The notes under the pieces: generated by a model | Told to the model about the DNA's origin: nothing | Databases searched by the model: none | The model's input: the letters and a program-made list of their open reading frames with translations, nothing else | Program-made: the position numbers and the translations under genes | In this document: piece by piece, positions 8,710 through 56,626 of the stretch | How the letters are laid out: each line of letters begins with the position of its first letter | How positions within the stretch are numbered: position 1 is the stretch's first letter | From: an uncultured Pseudodesulfovibrio sp. | Lineage (GTDB): Bacteria > Desulfobacterota > Desulfovibrionia > Desulfovibrionales > Desulfovibrionaceae | Assembly: GCF_963664965.1 (NCBI RefSeq) | Contig: NZ_OY761823.1 | Coordinates: 2,994,001 to 3,058,000 of the forward strand | Reading direction: 5' to 3' | Length of the DNA stretch: 64,000 nucleotides

Positions 8710-11700
8710 ATGCCCAAACGCACAGATATCAAGAAGATCATGCTGATCGGGTCCGGCCCCATTGTCATTGGCCAGGCCTGCGAGTTCGACTATTCCGGTA
8801 CCCAGGCGCTCAAAGCGCTGAAAGAAGAAGGGTACGAGGTAGTCCTGGTCAATTCCAATCCCGCATCAATCATGACCGATCCGGAGTTGGCCGACGCCAC
8901 TTACATTGAACCCATAGAACCGGAAACAGTTGCCCGAATCATCGAGAAAGAGCGCCCCGACGCTCTTTTGCCGACTCTGGGGGGACAGACCGGTCTCAAC
9001 ACCGCCCTCGCCGTTGCTGACATGGGTGTGCTCGACAAATTCAATGTCGAACTCATCGGTGCCGACATCGACGTCATCAACAAGGCGGAAAGCCGCGAAG
9101 AATTCCGTGAGGCCATGGAAAACATCGGCCTGAAGATGCCCCAATCCGGTATCTGCCGTACCATGGACGATGTTCGCGAATGGGGCCAGAAAATCCCGTT
9201 CCCCATCATCGTTCGCCCCGCCTACACACTGGGCGGCTCCGGCGGCGGTGTCGCTTACAATATGGAAGAACTGGAAGAGATCTGCTCCAATGGTCTCGCC
9301 CTATCCATGAAAAGCGAAATCATGCTCGAACGCTCCATTCTCGGATGGAAGGAGTACGAGCTTGAGGTGATGCGCGACAAGAAAGACAACTGCGTCATCA
9401 TCTGCTCCATCGAAAACCTCGACCCCATGGGCGTGCACACCGGCGATTCCGTCACGGTGGCCCCGGCCCAGACTCTCACGGACGACGAGTACCAGAACCT
9501 GCGGGACTACTCGCTTGCCGTCATGCGTGAAATCGGCGTCGAAACCGGTGGATCAAACGTCCAGTTCGCCATCAACCCGGAAGACGGCGAGGTCATCATC
9601 ATCGAGATGAACCCCCGCGTGTCCCGTTCTTCGGCCCTTGCGTCGAAAGCCACCGGATTCCCCATCGCAAAGATCGCGGCCAAACTCGCCGTGGGCTACA
9701 CGCTGGATGAAATTCCCAACGACATCACCCGCGAGACAATGGCCTCCTTTGAACCGGCCATTGATTACTGCGTCATCAAAATCCCGAGATTCACCTTTGA
9801 GAAATTCCCGGGCACGGACGATTACCTGACCACGGCCATGAAGTCCGTCGGTGAAACCATGGCTATCGGCCGCACATTCAAGGAAGCTCTCCAGAAAGGC
9901 CTGCGCTCCCTTGAAACCGGTCACATCGGTCTGGGCAAGAAATTCGAAACCTGTGACATTGACAGGAACGAAATTCTCAAGCTGCTTCGCAAGCCCAACT
10001 CCGAACGCCTGTACGCACTGCGTAACGCGCTTCGCTGCGGCATGACCGAAGACGAAGTCTTTGAGGCCACCAAAATCGACCCGTGGTTCCTGCGCCAGTT
10101 CGTCGACATCTTCGAAATGGAAAAGGAACTCATCGAGTTCGGCAAAAAGGAAGGCGTATCCGCCGAGGCTGACGGCATGGAAGACATGCTGCGGAAAGCC
10201 AAGGAATACGGTTATTCCGACCCGCAGCTCGCCGCCATGTGGCGCACGAGCGAGGATGCTGTCCGTACCCTGAGAAAGGAACTGAACATCATCCCGACCT
10301 ACTATCTGGTCGACACCTGCGCGGCGGAATTCGAAGCCTATACGCCGTATTACTACTCCACATACGAGACCGGACAGGAAAATGTCCGCGACGAAAAGAA
10401 GAAGATAATCATCCTCGGAGGCGGTCCCAACCGCATCGGTCAGGGAATCGAGTTCGACTACTGCTGCTGCCACTCCTCCTTCACCCTGAAGGAAATGGGC
10501 GTGCAGTCCATCATGGTCAACTCCAACCCTGAGACCGTTTCCACCGACTACGACACGTCCGACAAGCTCTACTTCGAGCCGCTGACTTTCGAGGACGTGA
10601 TGAATATCGTCGAATTCGAAAAACCCGACGGCGTGATCGTCCAGTTCGGCGGCCAGACTCCGCTGAACCTCGCCATCCGCCTGATGAATGCGGGCGTGCC
10701 GCTCATCGGCACCAGCCCGGACGCCATCGACCGCGCCGAAGACCGCGAACGCTTCAAGCAGTTCCTGAACAAACTGCACCTCAAGCAGCCGCCGAACGGC
10801 ACGGCCATGTCCATGACAGAAGCCCGTGAAGTCGCTGAAAGCCTCGACTTCCCGCTGGTTCTTCGCCCGTCCTACGTTCTCGGCGGACGCGGCATGGACA
10901 TCGTCTACTCCATGGAAGAATTCGAACACTACTTCCGACACTCTGCACGCGTCGCCCCGGAACATCCAGTACTCATCGACAAATTCCTCGAATACGCAAT
11001 CGAGGTCGACGTCGACGCGCTGGCCGACGGTGAGGACGTCTACATCGGCGGCGTCATGGAACACATCGAAGAAGCCGGAATTCACTCCGGTGATTCGGCA
11101 TCCGTACTGCCGCCCTACAGCCTGAGTTCCGAACTGGTACGAGAAATCGAACGCCAGACCATTGCCATGGCAAAGGAACTCGGCGTCATCGGCCTGATGA
11201 ACGTCCAGTTCGCCATCAAGGACGGCGAGGTATACATCATCGAGGTCAACCCGCGTGCATCGCGTACGGTGCCGTTCGTGTCCAAGGCCACGGGCGTCCC
11301 GCTTGCCAAGCTCGCCACCCGCGTCATGCTGGGCGAAAAGCTCAAGGACCTCAACCCCGCCTCCATGCGTAAGAAAGGACACGTCTCCGTCAAGGAATCC
11401 GTGTTCCCGTTCAGCAAGTTCCCCAATGTGGACGTGCTGCTCGGACCTGAAATGCGCTCCACCGGCGAAGTCATGGGCGTGGACCCGAGCTTCGGCCTTG
11501 CATACATGAAGTCTCAGCTTGCCGCGGGCCAGAAACTGCCCACCAAAGGCTCGGTCTTCATCTCTGTCAACGATTGGGACAAATCCAAGATCGTACTGGT
11601 CGCCCGCGATTTCGAGGCCATGGGCTTCGAAGTCATGGCAACCGGCGGTACGGCGGACTTCCTCAAGGAAAAAGGCGTCAACGTCACCAAGGTCAACAAG

Positions 11701-37715: not shown

Positions 37716-38801
37716 TTAGCCAGCGTCGCCAATCCCCTGCTGCATCATGAACTTGAAAACAGTCTCCATGAATTTTCCGGACGCCACGTCAGGCAGAGAA
37801 AAAAGCGGCAACTCGGATCCGGTCATGGCTCCCGTATACGCAAACCACATTTCCGAAGAAATCTTTGCGAGAGCCGGGGTCAGCATCTCTTCCCACAACA
37901 AATCCCCGGCACTTTCTTCAAGGCCGTACGCCCGACACTGAAGCGGCCGATGGTCAAACAGCATGCACTGCCCGTCAAGCAGCAACGGACAGACCGCGTC
38001 CACACCGGAAAGGCAGTATTCCACGCCCTCACGCTCGTCACCGAGATCATGCGCCGCCTGCCGCTCGGCCTGAGCCGTGGCAACGGCACGCTCGATGACC
38101 GCCACCCGCTCATCACTGCTCAGTTCCAGATTGATACGATGGCTGACATGCACGGCCTCCGCCAGACTCAACCGAACCGGAGTCCGACAGCACATATCAT
38201 GATCCTGTCCACAGGACTTGCAACCACTACAATCAACGAGACGCTCATCGACCCGTTGCACCAATTCCTCATAATCATTGAAAAATGGTGTCAGATCGAC
38301 CAAGCGTTTGAATTCAAGGGACGGCTCCCGCACCGTAAGACGCCCACTTTTCTTGCCGTATTTGCGAACGGTACGCCACTGCACGAAATTCGCAGGTTTG
38401 GACTTGAGCTTCTTGAGCGCCCGCCCCGCCAGTTTATGCCCCAACCCACGCCGCAGCAGATAGGCATTGAGCACAGTGCCGGTCCGTCCGATGCCGTGGC
38501 GGCAGTGAATGAGCACCTTCTTGCCGAGATAAATGGCTTCGTCGAGCCACTCCAGCGTTTTCTCCAGTTCGATAAGTCCCGGCGCTTCCTCGTCATCAAG
38601 GGGCAGGTAATGCACTTCAAACCCTGCCTCGCTCTCGATATCATGCAGGTCACAAAATTCACCGCACAGATTGAGAATCGCATCAACTCCCTGACTGCGG
38701 ATGGCGTCAAGCTGCGGATGACTCATGGGAGCATGCCCCACGCCTAGCTGATCGGTCACCCATGTGACCTGATACACCGGCTTATTACGAAACAGCTTCA
38801 T
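37716..38801 (-). CDS. Dual-specificity phosphatase fused to a YkgJ-type cysteine cluster
   Basis: 361 residues with two domains. Residues ~10-150 form a dual-specificity/tyrosine phosphatase: general acid D70 in YLPLDDEEAPG and the P-loop HCRHGIGRTG with nucleophile C100 and R106. From ~190 comes a cysteine cluster, CSGCKSCGQDHDMCC, then VCPLLLDGQCMLFDHRPLQCRAYG, the YkgJ zinc/iron-chelating pattern. Such a fusion suggests phosphatase activity gated by metal or redox state; that is inference. GGAGAG precedes the start. It overlaps the 3' end of the PEP-synthase-like gene by 17 bases, so it is the last member of that operon and may dephosphorylate one of its products. Confidence 0.85.
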   Translation of the reverse strand: MKLFRNKPVYQVTWVTDQLGVGHAPMSHPQLDAIRSQGVDAILNLCGEFCDLHDIESEAGFEVHYLPLDDEEAPGLIELEKTLEWLDEAIYLGKKVLIHCRHGIGRTGTVLNAYLLRRGLGHKLAGRALKKLKSKPANFVQWRTVRKYGKKSGRLTVREPSLEFKRLVDLTPFFNDYEELVQRVDERLVDCSGCKSCGQDHDMCCRTPVRLSLAEAVHVSHRINLELSSDERVAVIERAVATAQAERQAAHDLGDEREGVEYCLSGVDAVCPLLLDGQCMLFDHRPLQCRAYGLEESAGDLLWEEMLTPALAKISSEMWFAYTGAMTGSELPLFSLPDVASGKFMETVFKFMMQQGIGDAG

Positions 38802-41241
38802 CCCGACTCTCCGCACTCTCGATAAACCGCTCGACCTCGATGGCAACCTGCTCCTCATTCTGCATACGCATATCCATAAGCCGCGTAATGGCCATCAGAT
38901 ATCCCAGCCGCATAAGAATCCGCCGTGTCTCGTTTTCTCCGAGGCGATGACATCTGGCGTCAATCATGTCACCACGCGTCTGAATCTCGAAACCGTAATG
39001 TTTCAAAACCCGGCGAATGAATTCAAGCCGCAGAAGCCGCTGGTCAAAACCGGCCCCTCCACCCTTGAAACGGAAATTGATGTAATTGGCACCGCTTTCG
39101 GCCCCGCATACGGAGTCCACCACGGAAAAATGATAGCCGAAACGAATCATCAAATGCAGATAGTCTTCGGATATGAGTCCGTAACTCGCCAGCAGCTTGG
39201 AATCGAAGCTGAATATGCCGCCCGCCATTTTGTCGAATTCTTCCCAGTCCATGTGCGTCAGCTTTTCCGGCCACTGTACGCGAGGGTCAGATAGCCCGTA
39301 CCACAGCGCCCACATGGGACGGCTTTTTATATCCTGCGGCATGACGTATTTCGCATCCCCCGCATTGGCAAAAAGTCCATCACCCAGATCAAGAAGATAC
39401 ATGACCAGCGGCAGGCTGGTCCTGAGCCGCCGGGACGCCCCCATGCCACGACCTCTCTTGTCCACGAGCGAGAACATCTCGCCCACGGCCTTTTCATGGC
39501 AGAACCGCACCACGTCATGCAATGAACGGCACCCTTCCGGTGAAAAGTCCTCGGCCTGCGGGTCAGTAAGGTTAAGCCGAACAGTCAACGGGACCACGGT
39601 CTCATACTGTTTGAGCACCCGCTCCGATATTTTCTCTCCTGTCCGCCCACGGGTCAGGATCGACTCGACACAGCCGTCGAAAATCATGCCGTTTGTGCCG
39701 TCCACGGTCACCAGACGTCCGGGTGCAAGTGAAGGATCCTGACTGCCTACCAGCACGGGAACACCAAACTCCCGCGCCACTGAAGCAAAATGACTTGCCC
39801 TGCTGCCGTTGCCCGCAATGACGCCGCTCATCTTGCTGATAAACGTCAACAGTGCCGGTTTCAAAGTCGGCGTGACCACGATGGCCCCATCCGGGATACG
39901 AGCTATTCTCTCTCCGGTATCGGCATAATAGATTTCACCGCACCCGACCCCGGTGGAAGCCCGTTCCAGCCCTTCGATAAGCGGCGGCGCGGTAACGGGA
40001 ATCGTATCATCTGCGGCCTCGTCCCGCTCAAGCTGCAAAGGACGGGTCTGCAAAATGAACAACTCGCCGGTCACGTCTTCGGCCCACTCGATATCCTGAG
40101 GACCGCCGAAAACACGCTCAAGCCGCATGGCGTATTCAGCAAGGCGCACCAAAGTTTCTTCGGACGGCAGCCCGCCCTCGTCCGGCGCACACCCTTCGTC
40201 GAGTTGCAGTTTTCTGTCACGGGAAAGAACCGCCTTGGACGGAGACACGCTGCCGTCCACCAGGTTGTGTGCAAGGCCGCGCACACCGTACACACCGACA
40301 CTGTCCTGCCCCATGCAGTCGGGATCAAGGGAATAGACCACGCCTGCCGTATCCGCATCCACCATGGGGATGACAAGCACGGCCATAGACGTGTCGCTGT
40401 CCGTCAAACCGTTGGAAATACGATAGGTTATAGCGCGGGGACAATACTTTCCAGCCAAAACGCGCTTATACGCCTCAAGCACATCATTCGGCTGTACATT
40501 GAGTTCGCTGGCATATTGTCCGGCAAAGGAAATTTCACCATCCTCAGCAAGAGCGCTCGACCGAACCGCAATTAGGTCATCGCCGGTGATAATCTCGGAC
40601 ACGGCAAAACGAATGCCGCGGGCTATATCCTCCGGCACCTCTCCCGCCAGAATGAGTTCCTGCATTTCAGCCGTCAGATGAGCGAGCATATCCCGGTCAT
40701 GCACCACCATCTCACGGAGCATCTCTTCCATTTTGTCACGAATACCATTGAAATCAATGAAATAATTGAAAGCATTGGCGGTTATGACAAATCCTGGAGG
40801 CACCGGTACATGAGCCTCGTTGCGTGCCCGTCCGAGATTGGCTGCCTTGCCGCCCGCAAGCCGGGGAAGGGAAGCAGCGTCTTCCAGCGAAAGGATATAC
40901 GGAGGCCCCACGTCCGGCTGTTCCAGCTCCATGGCCATACGGACATAAAACTGAATCTTGCGAAAATAATCAGGCAGATCCATGTAACGGGACGGATTCA
41001 TCTCCACGAGCTGTCCGGCCATGGTCTGCACGGCTTCAGCCAACTGGGCGGCAAGCCAGTTGGCCCGCTGCCGGTCAGCCAGTTTTTCGCCGTAAAACAA
41101 CTCCTCAAGGTCGGCAATGAGCTCCAGAGCAATGGCGTCATGCCGCAAGAGCGACTTGAACGCCTCATATTTGCGCCGAAGCAGAGTACCCGGTGCGAAC
41201 ACCTGATAGGTCCAGTGCTTGAAAAGTTGTGTGACCAGCAT
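38785..41241 (-). CDS. PEP synthase/PPDK-like protein with ATP-grasp and phospho-His domains but no PEP-binding barrel
   Basis: 818 residues. Residues ~1-115 are a helical N-terminal extension. Residues ~120-410 form the ATP-grasp pyruvate-phosphate-dikinase domain (GGKAANLGRAR, VPVPPGFVITANAF, AVRSSALAEDG and DIEWAEDV). Residues ~430-510 form the swivelling phospho-histidine domain, with H484 in SRASHFASVAREFGVPVLVG. The PEP/pyruvate TIM barrel of true PEP synthases is replaced by ~300 residues of unfamiliar sequence (KGGGAGFDQRLLRLEFIRRV region). So ATP-dependent phosphorylation of H484 is possible, but phosphoryl transfer to pyruvate is not expected. It lies between a receiver gene (8-base gap) and the phosphatase fusion (overlap). 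Confidence 0.82.
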   Translation of the reverse strand: MLVTQLFKHWTYQVFAPGTLLRRKYEAFKSLLRHDAIALELIADLEELFYGEKLADRQRANWLAAQLAEAVQTMAGQLVEMNPSRYMDLPDYFRKIQFYVRMAMELEQPDVGPPYILSLEDAASLPRLAGGKAANLGRARNEAHVPVPPGFVITANAFNYFIDFNGIRDKMEEMLREMVVHDRDMLAHLTAEMQELILAGEVPEDIARGIRFAVSEIITGDDLIAVRSSALAEDGEISFAGQYASELNVQPNDVLEAYKRVLAGKYCPRAITYRISNGLTDSDTSMAVLVIPMVDADTAGVVYSLDPDCMGQDSVGVYGVRGLAHNLVDGSVSPSKAVLSRDRKLQLDEGCAPDEGGLPSEETLVRLAEYAMRLERVFGGPQDIEWAEDVTGELFILQTRPLQLERDEAADDTIPVTAPPLIEGLERASTGVGCGEIYYADTGERIARIPDGAIVVTPTLKPALLTFISKMSGVIAGNGSRASHFASVAREFGVPVLVGSQDPSLAPGRLVTVDGTNGMIFDGCVESILTRGRTGEKISERVLKQYETVVPLTVRLNLTDPQAEDFSPEGCRSLHDVVRFCHEKAVGEMFSLVDKRGRGMGASRRLRTSLPLVMYLLDLGDGLFANAGDAKYVMPQDIKSRPMWALWYGLSDPRVQWPEKLTHMDWEEFDKMAGGIFSFDSKLLASYGLISEDYLHLMIRFGYHFSVVDSVCGAESGANYINFRFKGGGAGFDQRLLRLEFIRRVLKHYGFEIQTRGDMIDARCHRLGENETRRILMRLGYLMAITRLMDMRMQNEEQVAIEVERFIESAESRDEAVS

Positions 41242-41249
41242 TCTGTCTC

Positions 41250-41609
41250 CTAGGCGTTGAGGACTTCCGCGACCTTGGTTTCAAGTTCGTCCTTGTTGAT
41301 AGGCTTGACACAATATTCCTGTGCGCCGAGCCGAAGCGATTCACGAGCGGTTTCAAGTGTGGGATATCCGGTCAGCATAATGGCCCGTATCCCCGGATTG
41401 ACCTTCTTGAGTTCCTCAAGCACCTCGACACCGGTCAGCTTCTTGAGCTTGATATCAAGGATGGCGAGATCCACGGGGTTTTTCCGGGCATGGTCCAACG
41501 CATCTTCCTCTTCAGTGAAGGCCGTCACACTATGCCCCTTGCGCTCAAGGATGCGCTTGACCAGCGCTCCGGCATCGGAAACATCATCCAATACTATTAT
41601 ATCAGCCAT
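41250..41609 (-). CDS. CheY-like response regulator
   Basis: A 119-residue single receiver domain. D8/D9 form the metal pocket, D52 in LAILDIKL is the acceptor, T80 is in IMLTGYP and K102 is in CVKPIN. There is no output domain. AGGAG five bases upstream supports the start. It is placed between the sensor kinase (9-base gap) and the PEP-synthase-like gene (8-base gap), so its phosphorylated form may control that protein directly. Confidence 0.93.
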   Translation of the reverse strand: MADIIVLDDVSDAGALVKRILERKGHSVTAFTEEEDALDHARKNPVDLAILDIKLKKLTGVEVLEELKKVNPGIRAIMLTGYPTLETARESLRLGAQEYCVKPINKDELETKVAEVLNA

Positions 41610-41618
41610 CTCTGCTCC

Positions 41619-43709
41619 TTATTCATTATCCTTGTACTCCACACTCTCACCGGACTCTTCCATCTCTTCCTCTTCGCCGTGGTCCAACGGAAGATTCACC
41701 CCGATCAAAGTTCCCACCCCGGCATCCTTGCCCAGATATTCCTTCGGGAACTCGAACGACGGGGGCACGGGGCTGGTCGCATGAATGTCACCATCGTGAT
41801 CCTCAATGATACCAAACGAGACAGACAGTCCGAGTCCGGTTCCACGCCCCACGGGCTTGGTACTGTAAAATGGATCAAAAATCTTTTTGATTCCCTCGTC
41901 GGAAATACCTTCACCAGTGTCTGCGACCCACAATGAGACTATCCCCACAGGGGTATCAAGGCGTGTACGGACGAGGATGGTTCCGCCCTTCTCGCGCATG
42001 GCGTCACGGGCGTTGGTCAGCAGGTTGATCCAGACCTGTTTCAGCTTTTCGGGATCTCCGTAAATGACAGGGAAACGATCATCGAGTTCGGTCACGATTT
42101 CCACATGATCGAGCTGGAACGTATGCCGAACAAGGCTGATCGCTTCCATAACCGAGTTATTGAAGCACATTTCCCGCTTGGTGGAATCCGCCTGACGCGA
42201 AAATCCCAACAAGTCGGCAACGATCTTCTTGCAGACCTGCGTCTGTTTTTCGATCACACGAAGGTCCTGATGAATCTGGCTTCCCTCTTCCACATCTTCC
42301 TGCAACAACTGGGAATAACCGAGAATGATACCGAGCGGCGTATTGATTTCATGCGCCACACCTCCGGCCATGAGGCCGAGCGATTCCATTTTCTGCGCCT
42401 GAACGATCTGGCGTTCGTACCCCTTGAGATCGGTAATATCACGGTCGGTACGCAACATGCCGGTAATACGGCCATTATCGCCATGGACCGGGATGCAGAC
42501 AACATGAAACCACCGTTCCACACCATTTTCCTCCACCACGAGCTGCGTATCAAGCCGCAATCCCGAATCAAGGATATCACGGGCCGCCATATGCCGTTCC
42601 TCGGCACGCTTTTCATCAAAAATATCAAAGTCGGTCTTCCCGACAAGTTCCGGCACTTCAAGGCCGACATGATGGGCAAAACTCCGGTTGGCACCCATGT
42701 ATCGCAGCCGGGTGTCGATGAGCGAGACACGGTCCGGCGTCACGTCAAGAATGGTACGCATCAGGCGCTGCTGGTCGCGCAGGTCACGCTCCACGGTTCT
42801 CAGTTCTCCGATGTGCGTCTTGAGAGACAGGGCCATGACGTCAAACGTTTCGGCAAGATCCTGCAATTCATCCCCTACGCCTTCACGATAGACCTTACAC
42901 ATGCGGCAGGAATCCTGCTTCCGCGAATGTCCCTCACCGTCACTGCATTCCGGGCACATGGTTCCGGCAATATACCAGCACCGACGTCGGGTGTCGCCAT
43001 ATGCGGGGCAAGCCTCAAGCCCGCACTGCTGCCGCTCCCAGCAATGGGTGACGTCAGACGGTCCGGATTGCATGTCCAAATCACCCATGAGCATGGACTC
43101 GGCATGCTCCTTGAGACGGCCAATTCGATTGGCGACCTGTCTGGAAAAAAGATTTCCGAGTATCACGGCCAGAAGCAACGCACCGGAAAAGAAACCGGCG
43201 ACCATGGTTAACTGACGATGCACCGTCGCGTTGATGCGCGTCTTGGACAAGCCGATACGCACAGTCCCGATTCGATCTGTCCCCACAACCACAGGTGAAG
43301 CAAAATCATAAATACGGGAAGCACCGTCTGCTACTAGCTGAATATGAATTTTTTGCCCGTTTTCAACGCTGTTCGCCCGAATCAGATCAAGCGGAAAACC
43401 TTTATGAAAGGTATGCGCGAGGACATGGCCGACTCCGTCCTGAACAAAGACATACACCACATCACCAACGGCAATCTGCTCATCGACCATGTTTTTCAGG
43501 CGCAAAAAATCGAGCGCAAGCATGGGTTCCACGGCCCGCGCAGCCAGACTTTCGGAAAGAGCCTGACCACGCAGCTTGTTTTCTTCAACAAGCGTCTCAA
43601 CCGTCATTCTTCCAACAAGAGGCAGCAGCAGCGCCGCCATGACAACAAGTATCGACGACATGCCGATGTTCAGCTTGGTCCTGAATTTGAGTCTGGAGAA
43701 AATACGCAT
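41619..43709 (-). CDS. Sensor histidine kinase with two-CW cysteine motif, HAMP and PAS
   Basis: 696 residues. A membrane helix (~17-34), a periplasmic sensor segment (~35-165) and a second helix (~168-188) lead to a HAMP region. Residues 223-271 hold eight cysteines in the two-CW pattern (CWERQQC, RRRCWYIAGTMC, CRMCKVY), probably binding metal or an Fe-S cluster. A PAS domain follows (~318-425), then the kinase core with phospho-acceptor H453 in GGVAHEINTPLG and an HATPase domain with DTGEGIS and GRGTGLGLSV. It is directly downstream (8 bases) of a PhnD-type binding protein, a likely periplasmic partner, and upstream of its receiver. Confidence 0.92.
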   Translation of the reverse strand: MRIFSRLKFRTKLNIGMSSILVVMAALLLPLVGRMTVETLVEENKLRGQALSESLAARAVEPMLALDFLRLKNMVDEQIAVGDVVYVFVQDGVGHVLAHTFHKGFPLDLIRANSVENGQKIHIQLVADGASRIYDFASPVVVGTDRIGTVRIGLSKTRINATVHRQLTMVAGFFSGALLLAVILGNLFSRQVANRIGRLKEHAESMLMGDLDMQSGPSDVTHCWERQQCGLEACPAYGDTRRRCWYIAGTMCPECSDGEGHSRKQDSCRMCKVYREGVGDELQDLAETFDVMALSLKTHIGELRTVERDLRDQQRLMRTILDVTPDRVSLIDTRLRYMGANRSFAHHVGLEVPELVGKTDFDIFDEKRAEERHMAARDILDSGLRLDTQLVVEENGVERWFHVVCIPVHGDNGRITGMLRTDRDITDLKGYERQIVQAQKMESLGLMAGGVAHEINTPLGIILGYSQLLQEDVEEGSQIHQDLRVIEKQTQVCKKIVADLLGFSRQADSTKREMCFNNSVMEAISLVRHTFQLDHVEIVTELDDRFPVIYGDPEKLKQVWINLLTNARDAMREKGGTILVRTRLDTPVGIVSLWVADTGEGISDEGIKKIFDPFYSTKPVGRGTGLGLSVSFGIIEDHDGDIHATSPVPPSFEFPKEYLGKDAGVGTLIGVNLPLDHGEEEEMEESGESVEYKDNE

Positions 43710-43717
43710 GACGTCCC

Positions 43718-44674
43718 CTAATCCAGCCCAAGCTTATTCGCCAGTTCACGAACCGGATCGTAATCCGCATCAACAGCCGGAATGATCCCCCGGATGCCAG
43801 CCGAATCGAGAATCTGCGAGGCATGAATACAGGCCTGCCCCCCTTCACGATTCAGTGCGAACATGGCCTGTGCAATGGCTTCCACCACAGCCGGATCAAG
43901 TCCCTTGCGGGCGGCATACACCCAACCGGGATACGACCGAGTCTCCGCCAACACCCGGATATCATCCAGATGCACTTTCTCCGCCACGACATCCAGTGTC
44001 CCCTTGCGGATGGTGCCCACATCATACGCACCGGCATGAACGCCGAGCACGACTTTTTCCTGCTTGCCCCCCGGTCCCGGCGCAAACTCGACTTCCTCGA
44101 AATCCTTCAGGTAAATGCCATGGTCATAGAAAAGCCCGAGCGGGAAAAGATACCCACCAGCGGAACGCGGGTCCACAGCGATCCACCGCTTGCCGCGGCA
44201 TTCTTCGATACTCTTGATTGTCGGATTGTCCTTTCGGCAAATGATCTGGCCCTGAAAATCAGGTTTTCCGGACGGCTCCAATATCCGTGCGAACGCCGTT
44301 GCCCCGGCCTTGGCGAGCTTGATGTAAACAAAAGGATTGGAATACGAAATATCGATTTCGCCACGTTCGACCATCTTGATATGTTCATCAAACGTGTCAG
44401 GGAAAATCTGACGAAGCGGCAACCCGGTGGTCTCCCGAAGGTATTGCAATAATGCCCGATGCCGCTGAAATGAGACAGTATGCGAGTACTGCGGCAGGTA
44501 TGCGTATGTGATCGCTTCCTGCTTCTGCGGCGCAACCAGTTTATCTCTCCGGTTCAGGTCCACACGAATGACGGGTTCATCATCCCCGCAACCACCGAGC
44601 AAAGCCATCATGGCAGCCACAACAGCCAGCAAAACCGGTCGAAAAACACTTGCAAACAATCTGTCTCGCATCAT
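43718..44674 (-). CDS. PhnD-type phosphate/phosphonate substrate-binding lipoprotein
   Basis: 318 residues. The signal sequence ends in a lipobox, LLGGC, with lipidated C29. The mature protein is a type II periplasmic binding fold of the PhnD family (TYAYLPQYSHTVSFQRH, GEIDISYSNPFVYIKLA, RSAGGYLFPLGLFYDHG). No ABC permease or ATPase is nearby; instead a histidine kinase follows after eight bases. The protein therefore probably presents a ligand to the kinase, as TorT does for TorS, rather than feeding a transporter. The ligand may be a phosphonate, phosphite or other oxyanion. Confidence 0.88.
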   Translation of the reverse strand: MMRDRLFASVFRPVLLAVVAAMMALLGGCGDDEPVIRVDLNRRDKLVAPQKQEAITYAYLPQYSHTVSFQRHRALLQYLRETTGLPLRQIFPDTFDEHIKMVERGEIDISYSNPFVYIKLAKAGATAFARILEPSGKPDFQGQIICRKDNPTIKSIEECRGKRWIAVDPRSAGGYLFPLGLFYDHGIYLKDFEEVEFAPGPGGKQEKVVLGVHAGAYDVGTIRKGTLDVVAEKVHLDDIRVLAETRSYPGWVYAARKGLDPAVVEAIAQAMFALNREGGQACIHASQILDSAGIRGIIPAVDADYDPVRELANKLGLD

Positions 44675-44835
44675 CCGTCAATCCTTACACGTTCACCACT
44701 CGCCTTCAACCCCGGCAATTCGACAATTAACCGGCATCTCAGCTATTATACCACTTGGCATCCCGTCCATTACACCGTATAAACAGGTCATTACGCAACT
44801 TATTCCGCCATTTTGCCCATAACCAAGGAGACCCT

Positions 44836-45633: not shown

Positions 45634-46245
45634 CTATGAGCTTTCGGGCAAAGGATCACTGCTTGTCGGTTTTTCAGACTTTTTCATGAGATCGGAGAAC
45701 ATCATCATTTCTTCTTCGCCTTCGTTTTCCTTGATTTTGCGCTTGATGGTCTTGAATACCGGCAGCCAGGGCTTGGCCTTGCCGAACAGGAACCGGGTCA
45801 GGATGTAGGCGGGAATAAAGATGAACGGGGGGCCGACTTCACCGATAAAGGGGACTACGAAGTCAACTTCTCCGAAACGATAAAAAAGCCAGCCGATACC
45901 GAAAGGAACGATCCAAAGGGATGATGCGAAAAGCGCGATGTGAGAAAAGAAATTTTTGCCAAAGGCTTCATTTGCAATGGAGTTGCAGGCCTTCCACGCT
46001 TTCTTGTCCTTGGCCCCGATGGCCTTGACGGAAAGATTGTGGTGGCCGACCATTTCGCGGTTGATCTTGGCGAAATGCTTTGCATTGAGAAAATAGATAC
46101 CGGCCATGCACAGTTCACCCAGAACCGTGGCGGCAAGGCTGACCCAGAAGATGCCGATGGCGAAACCGACATACGGATTGTCGGTAAGACGAAACGCCCA
46201 GATCATCCAGGGATCGAGAAACTCATATATCATTTGGCCGGTCAT
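45634..46245 (-). CDS. Small multi-helix membrane protein, partner of a TauE permease
   Basis: 203 residues with an N-terminal helix (GFAIGIFWVSLAATVLGEL), an amphipathic/charged stretch (NAKHFAKINREMVGHHNLSVKAIG), two further hydrophobic segments (FFSHIALFASSLWIVPFGIGWLF and VGPPFIFIPAYILTRFLFG) and a charged, acidic C-terminal tail. The order helix, charged coiled stretch, then helices is reminiscent of DUF106/EMC3-like proteins, but I cannot support a family call. AGGA six bases upstream fits the start. It follows the TauE gene, with a strong hairpin between them, and should be co-transcribed. Confidence 0.7.
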   Translation of the reverse strand: MTGQMIYEFLDPWMIWAFRLTDNPYVGFAIGIFWVSLAATVLGELCMAGIYFLNAKHFAKINREMVGHHNLSVKAIGAKDKKAWKACNSIANEAFGKNFFSHIALFASSLWIVPFGIGWLFYRFGEVDFVVPFIGEVGPPFIFIPAYILTRFLFGKAKPWLPVFKTIKRKIKENEGEEEMMMFSDLMKKSEKPTSSDPLPESS

Positions 46246-46265
46246 TGTATTTCCTGTTTTTTATG

Positions 46266-46291
46266 GGGGCCGCCCGGAATTGGGCGGCCCC
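46266..46291 (-). repeat. Strong intercistronic hairpin after the TauE gene
   Basis: GGGGCCGCCC (46266-46275) and GGGCGGCCCC (46282-46291) form a perfect GC-only 10-bp stem. On the - strand it is followed by an A-rich leader rather than T, so it is more likely a mRNA-stability or partial-termination element than a full terminator. Confidence 0.7.
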
Positions 46292-46318
46292 TGTTGTCTT
46301 TACGTTATGACTCGCGAC

Positions 46319-47446
46319 TTAGAAGGGGGGAACCAGGGAGTAACCGAGGAAGCCCTTGGTGGTGTAGCGGACACCAACGTAAACGGCGAGTACGATGAAG
46401 ATGTACTTGAGGACTCTGTCCGGGATGAACTTGGAGGTCTTGGGTCCGATGATGGAACCGATGACGATACCGATAAGCTCTGCACCGATCAGGCCCCACT
46501 CAACCGGAGTCTGCTTGAGCAGCATGTAGGATGCGATGGAGTTGACCATACCGATGAAGACCGCCATGGCGGAGGTACCGGCAACAAGGTACATGGGCAG
46601 ACCTGCAACGGAAGTCAGGAACGGCACCAGCAGGAAGCCGCCACCGACACCGAGGAAGGAAGCCAGCGCTGCGATGAAGAAACCACCGACAACCGGAATC
46701 AGGGGATTGAACTTGAACTCGACGCCGAAGAAGGTGAATTCACAGGCAGTCGGGGTGAACTTCTGAACCTTGACGCCCATTTCAGCCATATCGACATCGG
46801 CACCAGCCTGCTGTTCCTTGACGGACTTCTGGAAAGCTGCGGCAGCTTCCTTGGCGGCTTTCTTGTTGGCCTGACCCTTCGGGGTGGTTTCGTAGAAGAG
46901 GTAGCAACCGAGGAACAGGACGAAGAGACCGAAGTAACCGAGGTAGGCCTTCAGGCTGATCTTGCCTGCGGTGAGCCAGGGCACGAGCCAGGAACCGGCA
47001 ACGGAACCGATGGCAAGGGCAACGCCCAGCGGCAGCACAAGGCGACCTGCTTTATAATAGTTGAAGGAAGACAGGGCGGCGGAGCAACCAACCAACCACT
47101 GGTTCGACACACGGATGGAGTCGGTGACGACCTTGTTGAGCTTCATGGTTTTCTTGAAGCTCTTGGCGTAGTCGCCGAGGCCGTAGATGGTGATGTGACC
47201 GACACCGGCCATGATACCGCCGAATGCGCCGACGGTGGAGAAAATCCAGCCAACCCACACGGCCCAGACGAGACCGATGAGAATGTTCAACTGCGGAGCG
47301 CCGGGAATGCCGAGATACCCGACTTCACCCTGCGGTTTTGCCTCGGCAATGGCCTCGGACAGACGATCAGCCCACGCAGGTTCCGCCACAAAGCAGACGG
47401 CGACCAACAGGGCCAGCATCAAAAGAGATTTTTTGGAACGTAACAC
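46319..47446 (-). CDS. Large TauE/SafE family permease with N-terminal signal segment
   Basis: 375 residues, about 100 longer than the other TauE in the window. The start is GTG, five bases after AGGAGG. A cleavable-looking signal (SLLMLALLVAVCFVAEPAWA) and a periplasmic stretch precede the first TauE repeat. The two repeats are separated by a charged ~50-residue loop (NKKAAKEAAAAFQKSVKEQQ). The second repeat holds SFLGVGGGFLLVPFLT. Such long TauE proteins are typical of sulfate reducers and are presumed to move sulfur oxyanions or sulfonates. It heads a two-gene operon with the small membrane protein. Confidence 0.85.
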   Translation of the reverse strand: MLRSKKSLLMLALLVAVCFVAEPAWADRLSEAIAEAKPQGEVGYLGIPGAPQLNILIGLVWAVWVGWIFSTVGAFGGIMAGVGHITIYGLGDYAKSFKKTMKLNKVVTDSIRVSNQWLVGCSAALSSFNYYKAGRLVLPLGVALAIGSVAGSWLVPWLTAGKISLKAYLGYFGLFVLFLGCYLFYETTPKGQANKKAAKEAAAAFQKSVKEQQAGADVDMAEMGVKVQKFTPTACEFTFFGVEFKFNPLIPVVGGFFIAALASFLGVGGGFLLVPFLTSVAGLPMYLVAGTSAMAVFIGMVNSIASYMLLKQTPVEWGLIGAELIGIVIGSIIGPKTSKFIPDRVLKYIFIVLAVYVGVRYTTKGFLGYSLVPPF

Positions 47447-47527
47447 TTTTTCCTCCTCAGAAAGTAATCGTGTTGTTTACCCCGAAAATTAACTTCGCCG
47501 CCACACGCGGCAAAGCAAGTACCTTAT

Positions 47528-47983
47528 CTATTCCGGTCGTACGAAAGTCAGCGCACTTGCCGTACATCCGGTCACGCAGGCAGGAGTGCCACCGGCATCT
47601 ACCCTGTCCACGCAATAATCACATTTCATGATCTTTCCGGCCTCATCATTGAAAACCGGAATGTGCCAGGGACACGCTTCGATAATCGCCTCAGCGACTT
47701 CCTTGGTGATCTCCTTGGTCTCGTCTATAAGGACAAGGCCGTCTTCCCTGACATAAAATGCTCCCTGACTTGCGGGAACACACTGCGGCTTTTTACAGTG
47801 CCGGCAGTTTTCGTACTTCAGCTTGGCAGAAGGTTTCCCGTCCTTGTCGGCGATGGGTCCCTCGGCGATGAGACGGTTGAGACTCAGGCCGACCGGCACC
47901 TTGTTCTTCACCTTGCAATGAACGAGACAGGCGTCACAGGCGATACACCGCTTCTTGTCAAATTTGATTTTGTAAATGGCCAT
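47528..47983 (-). CDS. Ferredoxin-type [4Fe-4S] electron-transfer protein
   Basis: 151 residues with twelve cysteines at the spacing expected for three [4Fe-4S] clusters: C13/C16/C19/C23, C60/C63/C68 with C104, and C121/C124/C136/C140. The layout (CIACDACLVHC, CRHCKKPQC, CDYCVDR) is that of the small electron-transfer subunit of molybdopterin oxidoreductases (DmsB/PsrB-like), shorter than DmsB. There is no signal peptide. It is divergent from the molybdopterin catalytic gene, separated by a 291-base promoter region with two CRP/HcpR-type boxes, so the two are probably partner subunits under shared control. Confidence 0.88.
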   Translation of the reverse strand: MAIYKIKFDKKRCIACDACLVHCKVKNKVPVGLSLNRLIAEGPIADKDGKPSAKLKYENCRHCKKPQCVPASQGAFYVREDGLVLIDETKEITKEVAEAIIEACPWHIPVFNDEAGKIMKCDYCVDRVDAGGTPACVTGCTASALTFVRPE

Positions 47984-48074
47984 TTCACACCTCAAGTATG
48001 TCGTTTATGCGCGCAGTTCCTAAGATGAATCAACATCTGAGGAAAAAAGCGGGGTTGGTCAATGATACTTCTGC

Positions 48075-48092
48075 TTGTGACAAATTTCTCAT
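48075..48092. promoter_or_regulatory. CRP/HcpR-type box 1 (one mismatch)
   Basis: TTGTGA-CAAATT-TCTCAT follows the TTGTGA-N6-TCACAA pattern with one core mismatch in the right half. It lies 92 bases from the ferredoxin start codon. Confidence 0.45.
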
Positions 48093-48138
48093 ACAAATGG
48101 CATTATTTTTTTACTTTTTCCTTTTCGCCGAAAAAAAT

Positions 48139-48158
48139 CATGTGATACTTTTCACATG
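48139..48158. promoter_or_regulatory. CRP/HcpR-type box 2 (perfect palindrome)
   Basis: CATGTGA-TACTTT-TCACATG is a perfect 7-6-7 inverted repeat with the TGTGA-N6-TCACA core of CRP/FNR-superfamily sites. In Desulfovibrio the close consensus TTGTGA-N6-TCACAA belongs to HcpR. It lies between the divergent ferredoxin and molybdopterin genes. Confidence 0.7.
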
Positions 48159-48189
48159 CGGGTATATCATTGCGATCAATTGACACACG

Positions 48190-48218
48190 TTGATAGCTTC
48201 CACCGTACGAATTATGGT
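48190..48218 (+). promoter_or_regulatory. Candidate promoter of the molybdopterin oxidoreductase gene
   Basis: TTGATA (48190-48195) and TATGGT (48213-48218) are separated by 17 bases. It is downstream of CRP-type box 2, which would be centred near -76, an activating position. Confidence 0.4.
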
Positions 48219-48274
48219 ATTAATATTTCAGCCCTGCGTGAGTCACAATTTCACCCCCGTGGGAGGAGGATACG

Positions 48275-50365
48275 ATGAGTAAGGAATATGTCTACAGCAT
48301 CTGCGGCATGTGCTCGGTGCGCTGCCCCATTCAAGTCGAGGTCGTTGACGGCAAAGCCGAATACGTTCAAGGCAACCCCCACGCGGCAGGCCTCATGGGC
48401 TCTCTCTGCCCTCGCGGAGCGGCCGGTCCTGCGCTGACTCACGACGATGAGCGTCCGCAGTACCCCATGATTCGTGAAGGCGAGCGTGGGGAAGGAAAAT
48501 GGAAACGGGTTTCGTGGGACGAAGCGCTCGATTACGTGGCGGACAAACTCACAGCCATTCAGGAAAAGTACGGTAAGGACTCGGTTCTCTTCTCTGACCG
48601 CGGCGGCCCATTCCGTGATTTCTACCGCGCCTTTCTGCGCGGCATCGGCACGGCCAACTACAACAACCACGATTCCGCCTGTGCCCGTAACGTCCAGAAC
48701 GCGGCCCTTTCCGTTTTCGGATTCGGACGCAAGGGCGTTTCCTACGACCTGAAAAACGCCAAGCACGTCATTCTGCAACAGCGCAATATTTTCGAAGCCG
48801 TCAACGTCGCCGAGGTCAACAACCTCCTCGACGCCATGGGCAAGGGGTGCAAACTCTCGGTCATCGACATCCGTGCCAACGTCCCTGCCACCAAGGCCGA
48901 CAATTTCTTCATGATCCGCCCCGGAACCGACTATGGTTTCAACCTCGCGGTCATCAATACCCTTATCAACGAAGACTTGTACGACAAGAAATTCGTTGCC
49001 GACTGGATGGAAGACTTCGACAAGCTCAAGGAATTCGTCCAGCCCTACACCCCGGAATGGGCCGAAGAAGAAACCGGCATCAAGGCCGACGCCATCCGCG
49101 ACTTCTGCCGCCAGCTTGCCGAAGCCGCCCCGAGCGTACTCTGGCATCCCGGCTGGATGACCGCCCGCTACGGCGATTCCTTCTACATGACCCGCACCAT
49201 CTACATCATCAACTCCTTGCTCGGAGCCATCGGCGCACAGGGCGGCCTGCCGTTCATGAACAAGCCGGGAGACGTCGGAGCCAAGGGGCTGAACAGCTTC
49301 ATGAACCTCTATCCCAAGCCCGAAGGCAAGCGCGTTGACGGTGTGGGATGGATGGATGGCCGCAAGCACTTTGACGCAGGTCCGGGCCTTGTCCACCTCG
49401 CGTACGAAGCCGCCGAATCCGGCGCGCCCTACCCAGTCAAGGCGTACATCGTAAACCGCCACGACCCGCTCATGGCTTTCCCGGATTCCGCAGACGTCAA
49501 GTCCATGTGGGACGACATTGAACTCATCGTGGCCCCCACGTTCTCATGGTCCGATACCGCGTGGAATGCCGACGTGGTCCTGCCGATCTCGCCGTTCCTC
49601 GAACGCGACGACACCATCATGACCAAAAATGGTCCCAAGCCCGGTTTCGTCATGCGTAAACGCGCCATGCAGCCGATCTACGACACCAAGGCCATCTGGG
49701 AAATCTACGCAGGCCTTGCCAAGCGCATGGGATTGTCCGAACTGGATTACGATAATATTGAAGACATCTGGAAATTCCAGCTTGAAGGCACAGGCGTCTC
49801 CCTTGAGGACTTCGACGAAAAGGGCTTTGTCACCCTCGCCTCCGAACCGCTCTACAAGCCGGTCAAGGAAGGTTCCTTCAAGACGCCTTCCGGCAAAATC
49901 CAGATCATCGACGCCAAGCTCGAAGCCGACGGCCTGCCGTCCCTCAAGCCGTATGAATCCCCGGAACGTCCGCCCATGGACAAATTCCGCATTACCTTCG
50001 GCCGCTGCGTCCTGCACACGCAGGGACACACCGTCAACAACAAGCTCCTGTTTGAGCGCATGTCCGAGAACACTCTCTGGATCAATACCGAGCGGGCCAA
50101 GGCCATCGGCATTGAAGACGGCGAATATGTCAACGTCACGGGCAACGGTCACACCGGCTCCATCAGGGCGTTCGTCACCGACTTCATTCACCCCGAAGCG
50201 ATCTTCATGATCCACGGCTTCGGACACACCCTGCCTGTCGAATCCCGCGCCAAGGGCAAGGGAGTGGCAGACAACGAACTCATGCCCAAGGGCATTCGTA
50301 AATATGACAAGTGTGGCGGAGCCGTCTCCATGCAGGAGCACTTCGTCAGCGTAACCAAAGCATAG
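48275..50365 (+). CDS. Cytoplasmic molybdopterin oxidoreductase (DMSO-reductase superfamily, Phs/Psr-like)
   Basis: 696 residues. C10, C13, C17 and C45 (CGMCSVRCP and LCPRG) bind the N-terminal [4Fe-4S]. C136 in NHDSACARN is the likely molybdenum ligand, as in polysulfide/thiosulfate reductases. The C-terminal molybdopterin-dinucleotide domain is present (INTERAKAIGIEDGEYVNV, then MIHGFGHTLP). There is no Tat signal and no membrane-anchor gene nearby, so it should work in the cytoplasm with the divergent ferredoxin. The substrate is unknown; a sulfur compound or aldehyde-like donor is possible given the TauE neighbours. A strong GGAGGAGG precedes the start. Confidence 0.9.
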   Translation: MSKEYVYSICGMCSVRCPIQVEVVDGKAEYVQGNPHAAGLMGSLCPRGAAGPALTHDDERPQYPMIREGERGEGKWKRVSWDEALDYVADKLTAIQEKYGKDSVLFSDRGGPFRDFYRAFLRGIGTANYNNHDSACARNVQNAALSVFGFGRKGVSYDLKNAKHVILQQRNIFEAVNVAEVNNLLDAMGKGCKLSVIDIRANVPATKADNFFMIRPGTDYGFNLAVINTLINEDLYDKKFVADWMEDFDKLKEFVQPYTPEWAEEETGIKADAIRDFCRQLAEAAPSVLWHPGWMTARYGDSFYMTRTIYIINSLLGAIGAQGGLPFMNKPGDVGAKGLNSFMNLYPKPEGKRVDGVGWMDGRKHFDAGPGLVHLAYEAAESGAPYPVKAYIVNRHDPLMAFPDSADVKSMWDDIELIVAPTFSWSDTAWNADVVLPISPFLERDDTIMTKNGPKPGFVMRKRAMQPIYDTKAIWEIYAGLAKRMGLSELDYDNIEDIWKFQLEGTGVSLEDFDEKGFVTLASEPLYKPVKEGSFKTPSGKIQIIDAKLEADGLPSLKPYESPERPPMDKFRITFGRCVLHTQGHTVNNKLLFERMSENTLWINTERAKAIGIEDGEYVNVTGNGHTGSIRAFVTDFIHPEAIFMIHGFGHTLPVESRAKGKGVADNELMPKGIRKYDKCGGAVSMQEHFVSVTKA

Positions 50366-54811: not shown

Positions 54812-54913
54812 GCGCGCTTTCCGCGCGAGCCTCAGCCTCTGGCCTCTCCTTTCTTATAAGATCGACCACCGACTGTGCCCCACGGAGACACCACCCAAAC
54901 AGGAGGTTTCTCA

Positions 54914-56626
54914 ATGGTTCATTCTCTTTTTTCACGTCTAAAATCCAACCTTCCGACAAGCGTATCCTTTCTGCGCTCAGGGTATTCCCTGACAAAAGCA
55001 CGACGCGACCTCGGCGCAGGTGTCACGGTTGGAATCGTCGCCCTTCCCCTGGCAATGGCATTTGCCATCGCCTCGGGCGCTACACCGGAAATGGGCCTTT
55101 TTACCGCAATCACTGCCGGATTCGTGATTTCCGCTTTCGGCGGAACACGCTTTCAGATCGGCGGTCCGACTGGCGCATTTGTCGTCATCATCGCGGGCGT
55201 TGTCGCCCGTCATGGTTTTGAAGGTCTTCTCGCGGCGACCATTCTGGCAGGACTCTTCCTTATCGTCATGGGCCTTTTCGGTCTGGGCCGCCTGCTCCAG
55301 TTCATCCCCTACCCGGTCACTGCGGGTTTCACATCCGGCATCGGTCTCCTGATCTTTTCATCACAGATCAAGGACTTCTTCGGCCTGCAACTACAACAGG
55401 TTCCAGCGGATTTTCTCGGGAAAATGCTGGCCTGCGGTCAGGCTTTTCCCACAATGGCTCCGACGACCCTCGGCATCGGCATGCTGACGCTTGTTTCAAT
55501 GCTGCTCGTCCGCCGCTACATTCCCCGCATCCCGGCCCCGTTCGTAGGCATCGTTCTTGCCACAGTCGTTTCATGGGCGCTAGGTCTGAGCACGGAAACC
55601 ATCGGAAGCCGATTCGGCGGCATTCCCTCCACCCTGCCGAGCATCGTTCCGTTCTGGTCGGGCGACCTGAACCTTCGGGCAATATTACCCGACGCATTCA
55701 CCATCGCCATTCTGGCAGGCATCGAATCACTGCTCAGTGCAACCGTGGCTGACGGCATGAGCGGCGACAAGCACAATTCCTCAACGGAACTTGTCGCGCA
55801 GGGTATAGCCAACGTCTTCTCCGCCATCTTCGGCGGCCTGCCAGCAACCGGCGCAATCGCACGAACCGCCACCAACATCCGGGCGGGAGCATACTCCCCC
55901 ATGGCCGGAATCATTCACGTCTGCACCCTGATCCTGTTCATCAAGTTCTTTGCCCCTCTGGCATCACTTATCCCGCTTTCAAGTCTGGCAGCGGTCCTGA
56001 TGGTGGTTGCATGGGACATGAGCGAACCACACCGGATCAAGCGCCTCTTTCTCGCACCGAAATCCGACTCCGCGGTCATGGTCATCGCCTTCGGCCTTAC
56101 CGTCTTCGTGGACCTGACCGTTGCAGTGGAAATCGGCGTCGTGCTGGCCGCCATGCTCTTCATGAAACGGATGAGCGAACTGACCGACATCCACAACCTC
56201 GACACCGGGCTTCCGGAAGAGGAAGTCTTTGACAAACGCAATGGCCGGGAACGTGTGGTGGTGTATGAAATCTCCGGCCCGCTGTTCTTCGGCATGGCAC
56301 AGCGTTTCGTGGACGTCATGCGGTTCACTCGCAAGAAACCGGAGGTGCTGGTCCTCTGCATGCGGTCAGTACCGACAATTGACGCGACAGGACTTGAAGG
56401 GCTTGAAACGGTCATACGCCGTGCCCAGTCACAGAAAATCCGAGTGGTTCTTTCCGGTGTTCACCCGCAGATAATGCAGATAATGGATCGGCTTGGAACG
56501 ACAGAACTGGTTGGAGCCGAAAACATCTTCCCGGACTTTTCCACAGCGGTCCGCAAGACGCTTGTTCGCATGCCCGACCTTGATAAAAAACCGGAAACGA
56601 CAGGCAAACCGGCGCATGCGCTGTAA
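54914..56626 (+). CDS. SulP-family inorganic anion transporter
   Basis: 570 residues. The core has about 12-14 membrane helices (AGVTVGIVALPLAMAFAIASG, the family motif near the N-terminus, GGPTGAFVVIIAG, and SLAAVLMVVAWDM). A C-terminal STAS domain follows (VVVYEISGPLFFGMAQRFV, PTIDATGLEGLETV). SulP proteins carry sulfate, bicarbonate or related anions. Sulfate is attractive in a sulfate reducer but cannot be told from bicarbonate by sequence alone. AGGAGG seven bases upstream fixes the start; a longer frame to 54875 exists. Confidence 0.92.
   Translation: MVHSLFSRLKSNLPTSVSFLRSGYSLTKARRDLGAGVTVGIVALPLAMAFAIASGATPEMGLFTAITAGFVISAFGGTRFQIGGPTGAFVVIIAGVVARHGFEGLLAATILAGLFLIVMGLFGLGRLLQFIPYPVTAGFTSGIGLLIFSSQIKDFFGLQLQQVPADFLGKMLACGQAFPTMAPTTLGIGMLTLVSMLLVRRYIPRIPAPFVGIVLATVVSWALGLSTETIGSRFGGIPSTLPSIVPFWSGDLNLRAILPDAFTIAILAGIESLLSATVADGMSGDKHNSSTELVAQGIANVFSAIFGGLPATGAIARTATNIRAGAYSPMAGIIHVCTLILFIKFFAPLASLIPLSSLAAVLMVVAWDMSEPHRIKRLFLAPKSDSAVMVIAFGLTVFVDLTVAVEIGVVLAAMLFMKRMSELTDIHNLDTGLPEEEVFDKRNGRERVVVYEISGPLFFGMAQRFVDVMRFTRKKPEVLVLCMRSVPTIDATGLEGLETVIRRAQSQKIRVVLSGVHPQIMQIMDRLGTTELVGAENIFPDFSTAVRKTLVRMPDLDKKPETTGKPAHAL

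Follow-up and report, generated by a model that had tools for sequence, protein, structure and literature searches.

A five-gene PhnD-kinase-receiver-dikinase-phosphatase set of Pseudodesulfovibrio, counterpart of the Desulfovibrio nitrate cluster, as a possible switch for sulfur-oxyanion uptake

Which function could bring together, side by side on one strand, a binding lipoprotein, a two-component pair, a phosphoenolpyruvate (PEP) synthase-like protein devoid of its barrel and a phosphatase? The question is raised by a 64,000-nucleotide stretch (the window) of an uncultured Pseudodesulfovibrio sp. (NZ_OY761823.1, positions 2,994,001 to 3,058,000). On its minus strand, a PhnD-like lipoprotein gene (43718..44674; 318 amino acids), presumed to encode an oxyanion-binding sensor, is followed after an 8-base gap by a sensor histidine kinase gene (41619..43709), after a 9-base gap by a stand-alone receiver gene (41250..41609; 119 amino acids, no output domain), after a further 8-base gap by a barrel-less dikinase-like gene (38785..41241) and, with a 17-base overlap, by a gene coding for a DSP-type phosphatase with a YkgJ-like cysteine region (37716..38801, ATG at 38801). 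This layout, reported by a first-pass annotation of the window, proved exact to the base, and gaps of 8, 9 and 8 bases together with the overlap leave no room for internal promoters or terminators. All together, the sequence data support the view that the five genes are a conserved, operon-like set, and we consider it probable that the cluster to which they belong serves sulfur-oxyanion uptake.

The conservation of the gene set was assessed on reading frames obtained by a script with a first-start rule, so that some starts are over-extended. A search with the dikinase gave matches in 149 of the 150 genomes searched in the order, a count that includes ordinary PEP-synthase-like genes and paralogues; 38 loci, one per genome in 38 genomes and cut as regions of 9 to 19 kb, were then chosen by hand, not at random, among the matches listed. 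The five genes are ordered on one strand in 27 of these 38 loci, a conservation beyond chance. The loosest of the 27 are L057, with gaps of about 3 kb between its parts, and L066, with weak relatives and a longer regulator. Among the 11 failures, L055 fails solely through an over-extended dikinase frame, while dikinase and phosphatase are kept in L041, L042 and L068, receiver, dikinase and phosphatase in L056, and receiver and dikinase in L059 and L060; L058 and L075 consist of two opposed blocks, L062 shows no phosphatase in the piece examined, and L071 is of the paralogue type. In 34 of the 38 loci a same-strand receiver and the dikinase are no more than 200 bp apart (in L066 the receiver is the longer regulator).

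Outside the order, the same genes appear in other arrangements. Specifically, in L086 and L087, from metagenome-assembled genomes named Desulfosarcina and Desulfobacteraceae, a dikinase-phosphatase block faces a receiver-kinase-lipoprotein block; L085 carries four of the five genes placed in the same way, L104 has all five in line, and in L190 the dikinase stands ahead of lipoprotein, kinase, receiver and phosphatase. Twenty more regions came from 18 families that do not belong to the order; the phosphatase was found in 10 of them, a kinase in 13 and a receiver in 14. The same gene set re-sorted across lineages argues for a joint function.

The first-pass annotation knew of no described pathway with this gene set. 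This turned out not to hold, since the same annotations, in the same order and with mutant phenotypes, are present in Table 3 of PMC4001038, the source, in its parts dealing with the cluster, of the genetic data reported here. The 'nitrate cluster' described there (DVU0251-DVU0245 in D. vulgaris, Dde_0597-Dde_0605 in D. alaskensis), whose mutants are nitrate resistant, comprises a TauE permease, a hypothetical protein, a PtxB-like protein, a kinase, a receiver, a PPDK/PEP-binding protein with mobile domain and a DSP, and the match to the window is by order and annotation. In D. alaskensis pools, insertions in the listed genes gave nitrate fitness values above 2, including 2.34 for the kinase and 2.08 for the phosphatase; in D. 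vulgaris pools the values were 11.44 for the permease, -5.82 for DVU0250, 3.86 for the lipoprotein, 1.43 for the kinase, 9.14 for the receiver, 2.18 for the dikinase and -6.04 for the phosphatase. For the lipoprotein, only pool scores are available (3.86 and 3.51). Among the isolated D. vulgaris mutants, those in DVU0246 (dikinase), DVU0247 (receiver), DVU0250 and DVU0251 (permease) grew equally with and without 100 mM nitrate, and the isolated phosphatase mutant was slowed by 100 mM nitrate. According to the same parts of the article, none of these mutants grew better in nitrite, G20 mutants were mildly sick on thiosulfate (an unpublished remark of the authors), and the hypothesis of a leaky thiosulfate transporter was advanced, the native function being left open (PMC4001038).

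By gene order the receiver and dikinase genes are downstream of the permease gene, and the D. vulgaris phosphatase mutant is sensitive; polarity on either permease or phosphatase therefore would not explain the dikinase phenotype. We infer that entry or action of nitrate requires the dikinase itself.

What the cluster transports may be indicated by the DNA upstream of the five genes. The first-pass annotation had captured the five genes and stopped short of this region (45634-50365), which codes for a membrane protein, a permease of the TauE type and a molybdoenzyme resembling PhsAB. On the minus strand, a membrane-protein-like gene (45634..46245; 203 amino acids; membrane nature assigned by reading, no Pfam family; relatives in 17 of 38 loci) is preceded by a gene for a TauE/SafE-type anion permease (46319..47446; 375 amino acids; PF01925, 3e-26) and by one for a PhsB-like 4Fe-4S protein (47528..47995; Fer4_11, 4.1e-23), whose best NCBIfam match, the DMSO-reductase B subunit (3.3e-24), is below cut-off. 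Divergent to the PhsB-like gene, on the plus strand, lies the gene for a PhsA/PsrA-like molybdoenzyme (48275..50365), which matches PDB 2vpw, named a thiosulfate reductase, at 8.7e-101. No Tat (twin-arginine translocation) signal is visible on reading the start of this protein; the enzyme is therefore expected in the cytoplasm, to which its substrate would have to be imported. No membrane-anchor subunit for the PhsAB-like pair was noticed among the reading frames of the window.

The association of permease and molybdoenzyme recurs in other genomes. In the order loci as cut, many of them short, TauE was found in 19 of 38, PhsB in 13 and PhsA in 8, and in L062 the genes for PhsA, PhsB, TauE, lipoprotein, kinase, receiver and dikinase share a single orientation. 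A TauE match is present in 11 named loci, with both PhsA- and PhsB-like genes beside it in nine; these include all the named loci with a strong TauE match (L077-L083, L091 and L098). At E values up to 1e-20, PhsA- or PhsB-like genes were found in none of the 42 paralogue and 40 control regions described below.

As far as the sensory proteins are concerned, the lipoprotein matches Pfam Phosphonate-bd (8.2e-59) and carries a lipobox, LGGC, seen on reading the sequence. It is closest to proteins that bind phosphite or phosphonate and to arsenic sensors, its nearest solved structures being PtxB, a phosphonate-binding protein, HtxB and ArrX, with AioX further down and weaker; in the alignment with PtxB the S-T-S of that protein corresponds to S-A-G in the lipoprotein, and the AioX-specific cysteine was not placed. 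The presence of the oxyanion sensors ArrX and AioX among these relatives makes it possible that the lipoprotein presents a ligand to the kinase, as had been suggested. In the kinase, Pfam recognised sCache_3_2, PAS_4, HisKA and HATPase_c, and HAMP below its cut-off. A juxtamembrane cysteine/tryptophan stretch was evident on reading, and the phospho-histidine H453 as well as C223, C229, C234, C244, W245, C268 and C271 are invariant in 24 of 24 rows (alignment A7, with 23 of 29 relatives included). The receiver consists of a receiver domain alone (Response_reg, 1.5e-23), without DNA-binding output, and its D52, T80 and K102 are invariant in 24 of 24 rows (alignment A5, 23 of 33 relatives included). 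Its mean column identity is the highest of the five (78%, compared with 63 for the lipoprotein in alignment A4, which has 26 rows and includes 25 of 30 relatives, 60 for the kinase, 55 for the phosphatase and 45 for the dikinase), in a rough comparison of row sets that differ.

The dikinase is built of a helical N-terminus (about residues 1-120), a PPDK_N ATP-grasp domain (128-411; 1.8e-69), a phospho-histidine swivel domain (449-518; PEP-utilizers, 2.8e-16) and a C-terminal domain; no pyruvate/PEP barrel family was found by Pfam at E values up to 0.1. Its structure model (pLDDT, a model confidence score, of 86.5) best matches PEP synthase, rifampin phosphotransferase and pyruvate phosphate dikinase (PPDK), and the NCBIfam Rph match scores 155 bits against a cut-off of 999. 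The protein is 76-79% identical to the dikinases of five Pseudodesulfovibrio contigs (L076-L080). In an alignment of 37 rows, including 30 of the 38 order loci and six named contigs, K132, R227, E385, Q398 and H484 are invariant throughout, at places aligning with PEP synthase; the residue two before the histidine is alanine in 36 rows and threonine in one. The receiver, ATP-grasp and phospho-histidine residues are hence all intact, in keeping with the earlier proposal of a receiver coupled to an ATP-driven phospho-histidine protein.

The C-terminal domain (residues 524-818; 38788..39672, minus strand), whose own structure model has a pLDDT of 84.8, is modelled past residue 524 as one mixed alpha/beta domain with antiparallel strands. 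It matches no Pfam family, and the searches gave no confident relative. The domain is present in 107 of 297 genomes searched of the phylum. Twenty columns are invariant in 45 sequences (alignment A3), including H52, D53, R56, H59, E60, H181, R215 and D267 in domain numbering, and the conserved motifs look like an active or binding site. The HD..R..HE helix motif and the RFGYHF motif are nearly unchanged in distant paralogues.

Among the matches listed for the C-terminal domain, four reading frames are shorter than 500 amino acids; three run off contig ends and one, in L204, is real. This short form (393 amino acids; 9307-10488, minus strand of a 2.0-Mb contig; no Pfam family) has its closest relatives in the L085 and L087 dikinases, which places it with this class rather than with the paralogues.

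The phosphatase scores above cut-off for PF22785 (4.5e-18) and DSPc (8.9e-12). The CxxCxxCC (YkgJ) match reaches 17.6 bits against a cut-off of 23, and yet six cysteines of that region (C197, C204, C205, C271, C279 and C289) are invariant in 28 of 28 rows, together with H99, C100, R106 and T107 of the HC..GIGRTGT motif (alignment A6, 27 of 34 relatives included). The phosphatase with a cysteine cluster recognised by the first-pass annotation is accordingly borne out by an invariant Cys-Arg motif and six further invariant cysteines. Its remaining family assignments (PhnD, kinase, receiver, PPDK_N with PEP-utilizers, and DSP) were recovered as well; CxxCxxCC stayed below the Pfam cut-off, and the name 'two-CW' given to the kinase was in no table, there being no such family among its Pfam matches or the best 25 of its 82 NCBIfam matches. 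The phosphatase may, by inference, oppose the dikinase; in the genetic data, the D. vulgaris phosphatase mutant is not nitrate resistant and the D. alaskensis mutant is (PMC4001038).

The genome of the window encodes two further dikinases of this kind, one in a locus with a DASS-type symporter, a CBS-receiver, kinases and receivers (L036), the other with a kinase, receivers and a TauE permease (L037). In the DASS-type locus, an NhaB Na+/H+ antiporter gene follows (L036, 14430-16079), perhaps pointing to sodium-coupled uptake there. These two loci had suggested the permease link, and they were analysed together with 40 paralogue regions hand-picked among the matches listed (42 in all) and with 40 control regions at fixed coordinates, two in each of 20 long-contig genomes; a few seeds from the same data served to build the permease and two-component models, which therefore missed distant permeases. 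TauE or DASS was found in 24 of 42 paralogue regions versus 1 of 40 controls (Fisher p 2e-8), in 22 of 40 without L036 and L037 (p 1e-7), and in 0 of 37 dikinase-free controls, including 0 of 14 with two-component genes (p 1e-4), with the reservation that the tests treat related genomes as independent, so that these p values overstate independence. The sole permease-positive control, L173, itself holds a kinase-receivers-TauE-dikinase locus, and controls L177 and L182 hold a dikinase without a permease. Kinases occur in 25 of 42 paralogue regions versus 10 of 40 controls, and receivers in 32 versus 11. Outside the order, a TauE/DASS permease is present in 8 of the 20 regions, three by weak matches, and a DASS-like gene adjoins the dikinase gene at its end, or overlaps it there, in L095 and L096. 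The dikinase-permease linkage is a tendency, not a rule. In L127, L136, L138 and L142 two dikinase paralogues lie close together, and L136 and L142 also carry two DASS genes and CBS-receivers.

On these grounds, we propose that the five genes would do the sensing and switching within an island devoted to a sulfur oxyanion, most likely thiosulfate. The lipoprotein would bind the anion outside the cytoplasmic membrane and signal through the Cache/PAS kinase to the lone receiver, much in the way AioX, AioS and AioR act for arsenite; for the AioX system, the part of PMC5908839 describing it presents the loaded binding protein as the likely ligand of the kinase. The receiver would act on the adjoining dikinase, which would load a phosphate from ATP onto H484 and hand it, through the C-terminal domain, to an acceptor, thereby enabling the TauE-type permease. 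The phosphatase may take phosphate off the same circuit, its cysteine cluster tuning it to metal or redox state. The imported anion would be reduced by the PhsAB-like, seemingly cytoplasmic enzyme, and nitrate would leak in through the same permease, so that loss of permease, receiver or dikinase would give nitrate resistance. The receiver's steady partner is the dikinase and no DNA-binding regulator, which makes the dikinase as its output the most economical reading, and one towards which we lean slightly. The whole chain, from a sulfur-oxyanion sensor by way of receiver and dikinase to an enabled permease, is put forward tentatively, as possible rather than probable.

Several observations weigh against this proposal. 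The PhsA-like protein matches NCBIfam PhsA at 3.9e-152 with 508 bits, under the cut-off of 694, and relatives also use polysulfide. In the window a distance of 1.6 kb, occupied in part by a gene on the opposite strand, separates the permease gene from the five genes; 19 of 38 order regions showed no TauE, L085 and L087 have weak TauE matches without PhsAB, and, from the part of PMC5840216 concerned with them, substrates of TSUP permeases are not predictable from sequence. Besides the overstated p values, 18 of 42 paralogue regions lack TauE and DASS and 7 of 42 lack permease, kinase and receiver alike. Within the published genetics (PMC4001038, as above), the kinase gene of D. vulgaris carries a pseudogene annotation, and in preliminary data the isolated mutant in this gene had little or no advantage; the pooled and isolated results conflict for DVU0250, as do the two species for the phosphatase; the pooled dikinase value in D. 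vulgaris is far under that of the permease; and the cluster tends to be more highly expressed under nitrate. Literature searches, judged mostly from listings, turned up no study of the mechanism of the cluster (ligand, phosphotransfer or transport). In addition, the L204 short form covers, in a single frame, residues 1-96 and 546-807 of the window dikinase and has lost the ATP-grasp and histidine domains, although a phosphatase is its neighbour, a lone receiver is close by and the same region carries PhsAB-like genes. The outer domains of the dikinase may therefore work or persist without phosphotransfer in some lineages, which makes a mechanism always needing the histidine less likely; the same form suggests that these domains bind the partner.

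Three other explanations can be set against the same data. The dikinase could be a metabolic enzyme whose C-terminal domain phosphorylates, and thereby traps, either a carbon substrate or the anion brought in, a case of vectorial phosphorylation next to a permease. Its nearest solved relatives, PEP synthase and rifampin phosphotransferase, do phosphorylate small molecules, the invariant His, Asp, Arg and Glu of the C-terminal domain are typical of an active site, and paralogues often stand beside DASS/TauE permeases. However, we know of no phosphorylation trapping of inorganic sulfur anions, receivers are the most constant neighbours (34 of 38 loci within 200 bp, 32 of 42 paralogue regions), and the short form in L204 has no ATP-grasp domain; we regard this explanation as unlikely. 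That short form, without ATP-grasp and histidine domains, would instead fit a cluster made of a leaky thiosulfate transporter and a sensor, as hypothesised by the authors of PMC4001038 in the part covering the cluster; dikinase and phosphatase would then play a separate or a structural part, and it would be the outer domains of the dikinase that matter, not catalysis. The dikinase-phosphatase pairs of L041, L042 and L068, with neither sensor nor permease in line, point the same way, but the ATP-grasp and histidine residues are invariant in all 37 full-length rows and the isolated dikinase mutant is nitrate resistant (PMC4001038), and such a role for the dikinase seems to us doubtful.

The receiver could also take its phosphate from the dikinase, which would act as an unconventional histidine kinase, the classical kinase being mainly a sensor or phosphatase. 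Transfer from phospho-histidine to receiver aspartate is normal receiver chemistry, and receiver-dikinase pairs without an adjoining same-strand kinase exist (L056, L059 and L060). We know, however, of no swivelling dikinase that phosphorylates a receiver, and H453 of the kinase is invariant in 24 of 24 rows. Even considering that D. vulgaris needs receiver and dikinase despite the pseudogene annotation of its kinase (PMC4001038), we judge this explanation quite improbable.

Extending the proposed switch beyond the window, barrel-less dikinases with this C-terminal domain might constitute a phylum-wide two-component output, namely phospho-histidine enzymes switched by lone receivers and turning TauE/DASS permeases on or off; this generalisation is speculative, and we rather doubt it in its full breadth. 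A receiver-dikinase-permease signalling logic of this kind was not found described in the literature searched. The gene cluster itself is already known; as far as that literature goes, the AioX-type reading, the PhsAB link, the recurring permease link, the short form and the C-terminal domain are new. Nitrate is applied to counter souring of oil fields, and the nitrate cluster bears on the way sulfate reducers respond to it. Its links to an AioX-type sensor, to a PhsAB-like reductase and to a permease-linked dikinase family make it a testable pathway and suggest a new kind of two-component output.

Other features adjoin the island. A bacterial PH-domain gene (PF10882; 44755-45354, plus strand) lies between the permease pair and the lipoprotein gene, with relatives at that place in 5 of 38 loci. 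A weak candidate extended -10 element, TGG TATAAT (44745..44750, minus strand), was noticed by reading about 70 bases before the PhnD start and was not listed by a consensus promoter scan. About 4.5 kb past the PhsA-like gene, a SulP-like anion transporter with a STAS-like end (54875-56626, plus strand) was recognised by reading.

By comparing the window with systems already known, its closest counterpart is the nitrate cluster, from which it differs in the opposite-strand PH-domain gene between the permease pair and the five genes; the D. alaskensis cluster includes a DUF169 gene at Dde_0597 (PMC4001038). Thiosulfate and polysulfide reductases (PhsAB/PsrAB) are the best matches of the neighbouring molybdoenzyme, which differs from them in its score under the PhsA cut-off, with no Tat signal seen and no membrane anchor noticed. 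With PEP synthase and PPDK, the window dikinase shares the ATP-grasp and the swivelling phospho-histidine domain, catalytic residues included, while differing in the missing pyruvate/PEP barrel, in the other C-terminal domain and in the alanine two residues before the histidine (36 of 37). In rifampin phosphotransferase the domains follow the order ATP-binding, rifampin-binding and histidine. That enzyme (5hv1, 5hv2) is likewise a dikinase without a pyruvate barrel, whereas in the window protein the order is ATP-grasp, histidine and C-terminal domain, and the third domain differs too. Finally, the AioXSR and ArrXSR arsenic-oxyanion systems, as presented in the relevant part of PMC5908839, combine genes for a PhnD-like binding protein, a sensor kinase and a regulator beside a molybdoenzyme, as the window does; in the window, in contrast, the regulator is a lone receiver without DNA-binding output, and its output appears to be the dikinase.

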